Below are positions 45,206 to 52,243 of a DNA stretch of 64,000 bases, in pieces; the first letter of the stretch is position 1, and every line of letters begins with the position of its first letter. This stretch comes from Halobacteriovorax sp. Its GTDB lineage: Bacteria > Bdellovibrionota > Bacteriovoracia > Bacteriovoracales > Bacteriovoracaceae. The position numbers were made by a program, and so were the translations under genes. The stretch is taken from the NCBI GenBank assembly GCA_002720865.1, contig PBIO01000014.1, positions 620,001-684,000 on the forward strand, read 5' to 3'. The notes beneath the pieces are model-generated. The model saw only the letters and a program-made list of their open reading frames with translations. It ran no database searches and had not been told where the DNA came from.

Positions 45206-45234
45206 GAGGGCCAGGTTACTGGTCCTCTTATTTT
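45206..45234 (+). terminator. Rho-independent terminator of the lipoprotein gene
   Basis: GAGGGCCAG (45206-45214) pairs with CTGGTCCTC (45219-45227), one G-U, with loop GTTA. TTATTTT follows. Its tail overlaps the stop codon of the convergent hemolysin-III gene. Confidence 0.8.
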
Positions 45235-45872
45235 GGGAAGGCCACAACAATGGCAAGATAATGCATTGTGGTTCCGCCCATAACAAAAAGATGCCAAACC
45301 ATATGCGTATAGCGAATTCTCTTCATCATATAAAAAACTGAACCCACCGTATAAGAAAGACCACCAAATAGAATATAGTCCACTGATTTTTGAGGTAATA
45401 CTTCCTTTAAGTCAGACCACATAAAAAGAGCTGACCAGCCCATGGCCAAATATATAAAAAGAGAAAGTTTTCTTCGCTCCTTTTTTCCAAACAATTTAAA
45501 AAGAACTCCTCCTAAAGCATAAAGCCAGAAGAATGCGCAAAACCAAATACTTTTTGGAGTCGCGATATTAAACATCAAAAACGGAGTAAAGGTTCCTGCG
45601 ATCAAAATAAAGATGGCCATATGATCACATTTTTTTAGCATCAGCTTTCGCGTCTCATTCTTTTCTAAATGATAATAAGTCGAACTTAGGTACATTAAAA
45701 AAAGTGACAGCCCAAAGGCCCCATAACTTAAAACTGCTTTGGCCCCAAAAGGATAAGCGCTCCAAACCAAATCAAAAATCACATAAAGAGCAAAGAGAAC
45801 TCCAAAAAAATGCGTAAGGGCATTGGCTTTCTCTTCTGCCTCAGAATACTGAAATACTTTTTTGCTGGTCAT
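45228..45872 (-). CDS. Hemolysin III family (PAQR-like) membrane protein
   Basis: 214 residues with seven hydrophobic segments. Family motifs include EEKANALTHFFGVLFAL, SSTYYHLEK (Ser/His near helix 2), CDHMAIFILIAGTFTPF and RYTHMVWHLFVMGGTTMHY, whose histidines form the metal-site pattern of PAQR/YqfA proteins. Despite the name, haemolysis is not the general function; a membrane hydrolase or stress role is assumed. It is divergent from the accessory region. Confidence 0.9.
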   Translation of the reverse strand: MTSKKVFQYSEAEEKANALTHFFGVLFALYVIFDLVWSAYPFGAKAVLSYGAFGLSLFLMYLSSTYYHLEKNETRKLMLKKCDHMAIFILIAGTFTPFLMFNIATPKSIWFCAFFWLYALGGVLFKLFGKKERRKLSLFIYLAMGWSALFMWSDLKEVLPQKSVDYILFGGLSYTVGSVFYMMKRIRYTHMVWHLFVMGGTTMHYLAIVVAFPK

Positions 45873-45904
45873 GAATCCATTCTAATGGAATTGAAGAGAA
45901 GCTG

Positions 45905-45952
45905 TTGTAAAATATATGTCATGCGCACTAGGCCATAAACCTTGACACTTAT
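45905..45952 (+). repeat. 48-bp direct repeat, left copy
   Basis: It begins TTGTAAAATATATGTCATGC and ends AACCTTGACACTTAT. It matches 47987-48034 at 46 of 48 positions with no gaps. The two copies bracket the HigBA-metallopeptidase-lipoprotein genes. The repeat contains a TTGACA box. Confidence 0.95.
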
Positions 45953-47964: not shown

Positions 47965-47986
47965 TCTTTCACAGAACAAATCTCTC

Positions 47987-48034
47987 TTGTAAAATATATG
48001 TCATGCGCACCAGGCTATAAACCTTGACACTTAT
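47987..48034 (+). repeat. 48-bp direct repeat, right copy
   Basis: Matches 45905-45952 at 46 of 48 positions. It contains TTGACA 30 nt before the start codon of the small membrane ORF at 48058, so this copy is probably part of that gene's promoter. Confidence 0.95.
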
Positions 48035-48057: not shown

Positions 48058-48306
48058 ATGAAAGAAGAACTGAACAATATATTTCTTGGAGCCCTACTAT
48101 TTGCCCTGACGGCTTTGGCCCTTATGGGGGTAAATCTAGGCATTGAGCAACTTCAGTTCATGTTTATTGCGTTTTCGGGCCTACTTACTTTGGCCCTTAT
48201 CTCTAAATCAAAGTCGGAATCAAAAAGACTTATTTTCTCTCCAGTCTTTAGACCGGTTCCAGCAAGATCACAAACTAAACGAAGAATAGATCCACTCCTG
48301 AATTAA
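48058..48306 (+). CDS. Small two-helix membrane protein, candidate arrest-type regulator of the YidC paralogue
   Basis: 82 residues: two hydrophobic helices (~9-27 and ~33-49) and a basic 33-residue tail ending RLIFSPVFRPVPARSQ plus nine more residues. It belongs to no family I recognise. It lies 58 nt before a YidC-like gene, and a hairpin hiding that gene's ribosome site begins 2 nt after its stop. MifM in Bacillus and VemP in Vibrio are small exported/inserted proteins in the same position that stall ribosomes to induce YidC2 or SecDF2. Tail length from helix 2 is about one ribosome exit tunnel. The role is inferred from architecture only. Confidence 0.7.
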   Translation: MKEELNNIFLGALLFALTALALMGVNLGIEQLQFMFIAFSGLLTLALISKSKSESKRLIFSPVFRPVPARSQTKRRIDPLLN

Positions 48307-48308
48307 AC

Positions 48309-48360
48309 AATCCTTAAATTTTAAAAAGAACTAACGTTAATTTTTTAAATTATAAGGATT
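48309..48360 (+). promoter_or_regulatory. Hairpin sequestering the Shine-Dalgarno of the YidC-like gene
   Basis: Arms 48309-48328 and 48341-48360 pair at 18 of 20 positions (one G-U) around a 12-nt loop. TCCTT (48311-48315) pairs fully with AAGGA (48354-48358), the ribosome site 6 nt before the ATG at 48365. The left arm begins 2 nt after the stop of the upstream ORF, so a ribosome stalled or terminating there would open it. Confidence 0.75.
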
Positions 48361-48364
48361 TTGT

Positions 48365-48952
48365 ATGGAAAACTTACTCTTATCAGCTATTGAAACTTTT
48401 AATACTTTTTTTGGGAACTATGGTCTTTCAATCATCGCGATTACCCTTGTTATAAAATTTGTCACCTTACCACTGATGATTATCTCAGCTAAGAGCTCTA
48501 AAAAAATGGATCAAGTGAATAAAAAACTTAAGACCTATGAAAATTTAGAACCAGCCGAGCTGGCCCAAAAAAGAATCGAGCTCTTTAAAGAACATCAAAT
48601 CAATCCGCTCGCATCAATACTTCCGCTTCTAATCCAAGCCCCCATTTATTTTTTCTTATTCTCGGTCCTAAGTGGAAACTCATTCCATGGAAGCTTTATC
48701 TGGATTACAAACCTTGGGGCCTCTGACCCCTTTTTTATCCTACCCATTCTGGCCTGCCTTAGCTTTGCCATTCCCATGTTTCTAAAAAAGCAAAATGAAA
48801 TCCCCCAAACCATGAAGAAGCTTCAGTACATCCTTCCCGTCATAAGCTTTCTCTTCCTCTACAAAATGAAGGCCGCCGTCCTGCTCTACATCGCAACCAG
48901 CTCAATAATGTCTTCAATCACAACTTGGGGAATCGACCGCTTTTCATCTTAA
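48365..48952 (+). CDS. YidC/Oxa1-family membrane insertase, short paralogue
   Basis: 195 residues with about five hydrophobic segments and no large periplasmic domain; the main Gram-negative YidC is ~540. The family core is visible: NYGLSIIAITLVIKFVTLPLMI, the coiled loop KSSKKMDQVNKKLKTYE and LFKEHQINPLASILPLLIQAPIYFFLFSVL. An arginine in helix 1, needed in Bacillus YidC, is not seen; a Lys (VIKF) stands nearby. It likely inserts a subset of membrane proteins or acts as a backup insertase. Its 3' end is duplicated at 49785-49935. Confidence 0.85.
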   Translation: MENLLLSAIETFNTFFGNYGLSIIAITLVIKFVTLPLMIISAKSSKKMDQVNKKLKTYENLEPAELAQKRIELFKEHQINPLASILPLLIQAPIYFFLFSVLSGNSFHGSFIWITNLGASDPFFILPILACLSFAIPMFLKKQNEIPQTMKKLQYILPVISFLFLYKMKAAVLLYIATSSIMSSITTWGIDRFSS

Positions 48953-49079
48953 AAATATTTAAATTTTCTGGCGTAGTTCTCTTTCCTGCAAAGAGAGTAA
49001 ATTTTAACGTGAGACACGGATAACTCAATCAGTTTTGCTTTCTTGAAACAACATTTTCATTTCTACAAGTAACCAGGTA
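48929..49079 (+). repeat. 151-bp direct repeat, copy A (overlaps the yidC-like 3' end)
   Basis: It begins GGAATCGACCGCTTTTCATC, the last codons of the YidC-like gene, and ends at AAGTAACCAGGTA. By eye it differs from copy B at about 9 of 151 positions, without gaps. The non-coding part contains a hairpin-like CTCTTTCCTGCAAAGAGAG. Confidence 0.95.
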
Positions 49080-49784: not shown

Positions 49785-49935
49785 GGAATCGACCGCTTTT
49801 CATCTTAAAGATATTTAAGTTTTCTGGTGTAGCTCTCTTTCCTGCAAAGAGAGTAAATTTTAACGTGAGACAAGGATAACTCAATCAATATTGCGTTCTT
49901 GAAACAAAATTTTCATTTCTACAAGTAACCAGGTA
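49785..49935 (+). repeat. 151-bp direct repeat, copy B
   Basis: A second copy of the YidC-like gene's last codons and following sequence, about 94% identical to copy A by eye. It starts 14 nt after the barrel gene stop. The coding part is a remnant, not attached to any ORF. Confidence 0.95.
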
Positions 49936-52053: not shown

Positions 52054-52125
52054 TCATATGAGTACTACTAAAGCTGATTCTACCCTTCCATGCGAACAAA
52101 TCATTTTAGGCCGGGACGCGTAGGC

Positions 52126-52152
52126 AAAAAAAAAGCCCCGCAAACGCGAGGC
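52126..52152 (-). terminator. Rho-independent terminator of the tRNA operon
   Basis: On the minus strand GCCTCGC pairs with GCGGGGC (52135-52152, one G-U), loop GTTT, then a run of nine T. Confidence 0.9.
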
Positions 52153-52165
52153 TTCTTTTTTAAAT

Positions 52166-52243
52166 TGGTACTCCGTAGGGGATTCGAACCCCTGTTACCG
52201 CCGTGAAAAGGCGGTGTCCTAGACCGGGCTAGACGAACGGAGC
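52166..52243 (-). tRNA. tRNA-Glu (anticodon TTC)
   Basis: Minus strand: acceptor GCTCCGT/ACGGAGT (first pair G-U), anticodon stem CCGCC/GGCGG with loop TTTTCAC giving TTC, T-arm with GGTTCGAATCC, and encoded CCA at 52166-52168. It is the second gene of a tRNA-Lys/tRNA-Glu transcript. Confidence 0.95.

Follow-up and report, generated by a model that had tools for sequence, protein, structure and literature searches.

Second copies of YidC have usually been described from Gram-positive bacteria (PMC10588454), and the arrest peptides linked to yidC genes from Bacillus, Actinobacteria and Clostridia. These peptides, MifM, ApcA and CliM, are all encoded upstream of secondary yidC genes (PMC6037786, PMC7897499, PMC13183943), and small ORFs upstream of secondary yidC genes recur patchily in other phyla (PMC10987492, PMC7897499, PMC13183943). 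The window analyzed here, a stretch of 64,000 nucleotides from a Halobacteriovorax genome, holds a short yidC paralogue preceded by a small membrane ORF and a predicted RNA hairpin. The question that this locus raises is whether the ORF and the hairpin together control the synthesis of the second insertase, and in what manner.

A short YidC paralogue and its upstream ORF

The two genes and the tail of the first were delimited as follows:

48058..48306, + strand: upstream ORF of 82 aa with two predicted transmembrane helices and a basic tail (hydropathy, codon score, AlphaFold model)
48205..48303, + strand: basic C-terminal tail of this ORF, 33 residues, net charge about +6
48365..48952, + strand: yidC2, a short YidC/Oxa1 paralogue of 195 aa without the P1 domain and without a C-terminal extension (PF02096 E=9e-33, TIGR03592 E=1e-37)

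The yidC2 product covers the PF02096 profile (60KD_IMP core domain) at positions 1–162 of 163. The main YidC of the same genome is an ordinary protein of 494 aa, encoded elsewhere (G000:C14:227k) in the order rnpA–yidD–yidC–mnmE, the genes being named from their sequences. Two other genomes of the genus have the long copy only, and searches of viral contigs, phages, plasmids and genome contigs for close relatives of the short YidC returned only ordinary YidC, at about 25–38% identity. The plasmid matches that were inspected (Legionella, Acidithiobacillus, C. difficile) proved to be ordinary rpmH–rnpA–yidD–yidC operons and were set aside as relatives of the short YidC.

The upstream ORF ends with a TAA stop codon at 48304–48306, 58 nt upstream of yidC2. 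Hydropathy peaks place its two helices at about residues 4–23 and 30–47, and a single-sequence AlphaFold model gives helices at 2–22 and 29–59 followed by an unstructured end, with pLDDT values of 74–85 over residues 1–50 and of 49–62 in the tail. The tail comprises 33 residues when counted from residue 50, and about 33–35 aa separate the second helix from the stop; the topology is likely N-in/C-in. The ORF looks coding because its codon score beats that of 99.8% of off-frame chunks, a score that is low among real genes (about the 7th percentile). It has no match in Pfam or NCBIfam, and homologues were absent from 97 relatives, 129 family genomes, plasmids and viral contigs. A weak match in genome G164 contains internal stops and was not counted as a homologue. 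An assignment of the ORF to YidD was likewise rejected: the YidD gene of this genome precedes the main yidC, and the ORF lacks YidD sequence.

A predicted hairpin over the ribosome site of yidC2

The spacer between the two genes is predicted to fold into a hairpin that includes the Shine-Dalgarno (SD) sequence of yidC2:

48309..48328, + strand: left arm of the hairpin, beginning 2 nt past the ORF stop codon
48341..48360, + strand: right arm of the hairpin, holding the yidC2 SD
48354..48358, + strand: AAGGA, the SD of yidC2, pairing with TCCTT at 48311–48315

Across the hairpin (48309–48360), 18 of the 20 arm positions are paired, 17 as Watson–Crick pairs and one as G–U, and the AAGGA lies 6 nt upstream of the yidC2 ATG at 48365. 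For the 61 nt that run from the ORF stop to this ATG, the predicted folding energy is −11.7 kcal/mol; 200 shuffles average −4.8 (z −3.4), and not one of them is as stable. Within a 121-nt context z is only −0.65, with the hairpin still part of the minimum-energy structure. The Rfam scan yielded no credible RNA element, its one chance match lying far below the gathering score, and no terminator was found on the + strand of the locus.

To place these values, two controls were drawn from the same genome. Among 43 tandem gene pairs with gaps of 30–90 nt, the SD is paired at a level of at least 0.9 with the 20 nt that follow the upstream stop in four, the yidC2 pair included. Of 500 candidate starts, a set that includes internal ATGs and to which the tandem-pair control is preferred, 26 (about 5%) fold just as stably and have their SD paired. 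The base rate of an SD-hiding hairpin alone in this genome is about 5–9%. The ORF–yidC2 hairpin is thus real by prediction, yet by itself not rare in this genome, because four of the 43 tandem pairs have their SD paired likewise.

One further tandem pair of the same genome (G000:C14, L106:11356–11431) has a hairpin of −21.6 kcal/mol in which the downstream SD pairs with the post-stop sequence; this pair is a candidate for translational coupling.

The preliminary description of the locus, made from the letters of the sequence, had set out this arrangement, and it is confirmed. The two helices and the 33-residue basic tail ending at 48306 are recovered by hydropathy and the AlphaFold model, and the hairpin 2 nt past the stop, with 18 of 20 paired positions and its TCCTT–AAGGA pairing, is seen in the sequence and in the fold of −11.7 kcal/mol. 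The next gene is indeed a short YidC/Oxa1 paralogue, with a PF02096 match at E=9e-33 over 195 aa. Likewise in agreement with that description, which had seen no known arrest motif, RAPP, RAPG, RAGP and KYxIW are absent from the tail of the 82-aa ORF.

A second instance in another family

A Pfam search of 369 genomes of the phylum found more than one PF02096 match in just four, namely the window genome, G247, G102 and G058. G102 was rejected as a carrier of a short paralogue since it has two long copies, and G058 since its matches are fragments of one gene. A short second YidC is therefore present in 2 of the 369 genomes, the window genome and G247, which belongs to another family; a profile built from the two short YidC proteins found no further short member among the 369. 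The preliminary description had proposed a search for the same ORF–hairpin–yidC order elsewhere, and this order was found in G247, the sole further genome of the set that has a short second YidC.

Immediately upstream of the gene for the G247 short YidC (197 aa) lies an ORF of 91 aa (L132:1099–1374) with two hydropathy helices followed by a basic tail. The helices end near residues 20 and 47 in both the window and the G247 ORF, and the spacer from helix to end is about 44 residues in G247. In the predicted fold of this leader, a segment made up of the final two codons, the stop and the bases just after it pairs with the SD and the start codon of the short yidC. The fold (−15.5 kcal/mol) is equaled by 12 of 200 shuffles (z −1.5) and is not strongly beyond chance. 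The two short YidC proteins pair in the tree with 86/86 support; because both are very long branches, a shared origin is not established. In the alignment, the groove position is occupied by lysine in the window protein (VIKFVTLPL) and by arginine in that of G247; we take this lysine to stand at the conserved groove arginine of YidC.

The resemblance between the two upstream ORFs is concentrated in a short motif:

48283..48303, + strand: C-terminal motif RIDPLLN-stop (R-x-D-P-x-L-x-stop), common to the G247 ORF (RHDPYLI-stop)

Anchored at the stop and aligned without gaps, the tails VFRPVPARSQTKRRIDPLLN (window ORF) and SYRLDVPRKEWIKRHDPYLI (G247 ORF) agree at six of their 20 terminal residues; four identities within the final nine make up R-x-D-P-x-L-x-stop. 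In frequency tests that were made after the G247 ORF had been seen, and whose numbers are a guide only, shuffling one tail gives six identities per 20 with P of about 0.001, none of 878 other proteins reaches 6/20 tail identities with either ORF, and an R.DP.L. ending occurs in the window and G247 ORFs and in none of those 878. Compared as wholes, the two ORFs give no BLASTP match and are 24% identical overall; their similarity therefore lies mainly at the end, where an arrest motif would be expected. No third credible member emerged from the 369 genomes with a profile built from both ORFs, so the C-terminal conservation rests on two sequences in that set. Of the tail conservation and the hairpin covariation to which the preliminary description looked, the former is represented by the R-x-D-P-x-L-x-stop common to these two sequences, which are too few to show the latter.

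A two-helix ORF of 60–120 aa with a tail lies just upstream of 3 of 458 genes of the window genome (those encoding 150 aa or more whose upstream neighbor lies on the same strand), yidC2 included; this count, too, was made after G247 had been seen and serves as a guide. Because only these three genes have such an ORF, its presence before both short yidC genes is unlikely to be due to chance. The same order and the stop-anchored tail motif in G247 support the view that ORF, hairpin and yidC2 form a conserved regulatory unit.

Predicted opening of the hairpin

A ribosome protects about 15–16 nt counted from the first base of the P site. To model the switch, the fold was computed with part of the RNA held single-stranded. 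The cost of opening the yidC2 ribosome site is predicted to fall from about 11.7 to about 2.5 kcal/mol once protection extends 9 nt beyond the first base of the stop; the modeled release in G247 is weaker, from 8–9 to 5–5.5 kcal/mol. Because protection to +9 of the stop is combined with a footprint of 15–16 nt, the predicted opening would require the P site to be in one of the last one or two codons, or termination, and a stall further upstream would fail to open the site. The modeled opening fits both an arrest at the ORF end and coupling by a terminating ribosome.

The mechanism that we propose runs as follows. With no ribosome near the ORF end, the hairpin is predicted to hide the yidC2 ribosome site; a ribosome detained on the final one or two codons, or on the stop codon, would cover the left arm and free the site. 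By analogy with MifM, ApcA and CliM, this hold would most likely come from nascent-chain arrest by the C-terminal R-x-D-P-x-L-x-stop motif, the arrest would be released once YidC inserts the two N-terminal helices, and a loss of insertase capacity would induce YidC2. The ORF and the hairpin are probably a translation switch that turns on a spare insertase, most likely upon insertion failure. A YidC-monitoring arrest switch, MifM-like by layout, is the best-supported reading, to which we assign a probability of about 0.5; confidence in the arrest stays at this level because the ORF shows no known motif and no family match, coupling has a precedent (rpmI–rplT) and post-stop structures are common. 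The MifM-like interpretation given in the preliminary description is partly supported by the G247 gene order, the stop-anchored motif and the agreement with published features of monitoring substrates (PMC10987492).

Alternative explanations

The main rival of the arrest switch is plain translational coupling, in which a ribosome reaching the ORF stop would briefly open the hairpin and tie YidC2 to translation of the ORF with no regulated stall; the ORF may then be a dispensable leader. The preliminary description had named it the main alternative, and we agree, since SD-hiding hairpins by themselves occur at a base rate of about 5–9%. The hairpin begins 2 nt past the stop, where ordinary termination would, by prediction, suffice to open it, and SD-hiding hairpins follow the stops of other tandem genes of the genome (4/43). 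In E. coli, rpmI–rplT is coupled by such unfolding: a ribosome translating the upstream gene melts a structure that covers the downstream SD, at a similar spacing of about 50 nt (52 nt; PMC12548453). That system differs in that its upstream gene is not a membrane ORF, and it has no regulated stall. Coupling leaves unexplained why a two-helix membrane ORF with a shared, stop-anchored tail stands at both short yidC genes of the phylum, and we regard it as somewhat unlikely.

It is improbable that the small two-helix protein is instead a dedicated partner or substrate of YidC2, with coupling keeping the two in proportion and the tail binding YidC2 or the ribosome after synthesis. Such a role would suit the strict co-occurrence of the ORF and the short YidC in two families, as well as the basic tail, which is like that of ribosome-binding extensions, next to a short YidC that lacks a C-terminal basic tail of its own. 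The helices, however, are not conserved in sequence (24% overall identity and no BLAST match), and the residues in common sit at the very end, beside the stop. A chance AU-rich palindrome or generic post-stop structure (RTS) with no regulatory role for yidC2 would agree with the z of −0.65 in the wider context, with the 26 of 500 candidate starts (about 5%) and with the post-stop structures found after 18–65% of bacterial genes (PMC7518266), but is very unlikely given that 0 of 200 intergenic shuffles folds as well, that the pairing falls exactly on the SD and that G247 has its own predicted pairing of ORF end with start region.

Comparison with known arrest systems

The arrest switch can be set against the published criteria for Sec/YidC monitoring substrates, which include a small, functionally uncharacterized ORF immediately upstream of a sec or yidC gene, an N-terminal signal or transmembrane segment, a C-terminal sequence conserved among homologues and a spacer of more than 30 residues from the membrane segment to the end of the conserved sequence (PMC10987492). 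The window ORF has the position, the membrane segment and the spacer, the last of about 33–35 residues and just above the limit; a hairpin over the downstream SD that is opened by a ribosome at the ORF end is present as a prediction. The two predicted helices of both the window and the G247 ORF fit a two-helix N-in/C-in topology with a small outer loop, which is reported for MifM and ApcA homologues (PMC10987492).

The closest layout is that of MifM–yidC2 of Bacillus, in which a small membrane ORF also lies directly upstream of a secondary yidC, and a hairpin hides the yidC2 SD until it is opened by a ribosome close to the end of the ORF (PMC6037786), as is predicted for the window ORF. MifM differs in its median spacer of 54 residues, compared with the tail of about 33 aa, and in its stall, which falls mainly at codons 89–92 of 95, whereas a stall in the window ORF would be confined to the last one or two codons or the stop. 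The window ORF has no family match in Pfam or NCBIfam; its likeness to MifM is one of layout, and it is not filed as a MifM homologue. ApcA of Actinobacteria and CliM/uC_KYxIW of Clostridia are likewise encoded upstream of secondary yidC genes, and their N-terminal part forms one helix or two (PMC7897499, PMC10987492). Both a start-hiding hairpin and the monitoring of YidC have been demonstrated for CliM (PMC13183943). Their motifs, RAPG and KYxIW, are absent from the window ORF, and those described are from Gram-positive phyla. SecM and VemP agree with the proposed scheme in that their arrest unfolds a hairpin covering the SD of a translocation gene; they differ in monitoring Sec export and in having long spacers and other arrest motifs.

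Genomic setting of the ORF–yidC2 pair

The genes that flank the locus, one hemolysin-III-like (45228–45872) and one MtaB-like (52554), both named from their sequences, are kept in genome G002, where different genes lie between them beside tRNA-Glu and tRNA-Lys. The locus of the ORF–yidC2 pair is therefore variable, and the pair was probably gained horizontally.

Several repeats were recorded in the same region. A 51-bp direct repeat (94%; window 45902–45952 and 47984–48034), the second copy just upstream of the 82-aa ORF, flanks about 2 kb with a HigBA-like toxin–antitoxin pair and two further genes; this segment resembles an insertion by which the leader region was duplicated. Farther along, an ORF of 178 aa is flanked by a 151-bp direct repeat (94%; window 48929–49079 and 49785–49935) that takes in the final 24 nt of yidC2, apparently a second insertion with a flanking duplication. 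Elements of the form AAGTAACCASGTAC are dispersed in the window genome and G002 (window 49067, 49144 and 46111; L040–L049, L055 and L057–L059). They may be REP elements, because one of them, in L043, precedes an ORF that resembles, on reading by eye, a REP-associated tyrosine transposase. Genome G002 has, upstream of the intact region, a 66-nt copy (89%; L060:11023–11087) of window 52119–52184, the stretch that overlaps the 3' end of tRNA-Glu; this copy suggests an integrated element at a hot spot.

Conclusions

Tentatively, the two units can be seen as a possible new class of YidC-monitoring arrest peptides outside the Gram-positive phyla, which would carry a stop-proximal R-x-D-P-x-L-x-stop motif, accompany a short backup YidC at variable loci and have an origin independent of MifM, ApcA and CliM. 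The ORF–yidC2 unit is a small and directly testable target. If the proposal is true, it would add another independent origin of nascent-chain insertion sensing, in a further phylum and with a new motif at the stop codon.
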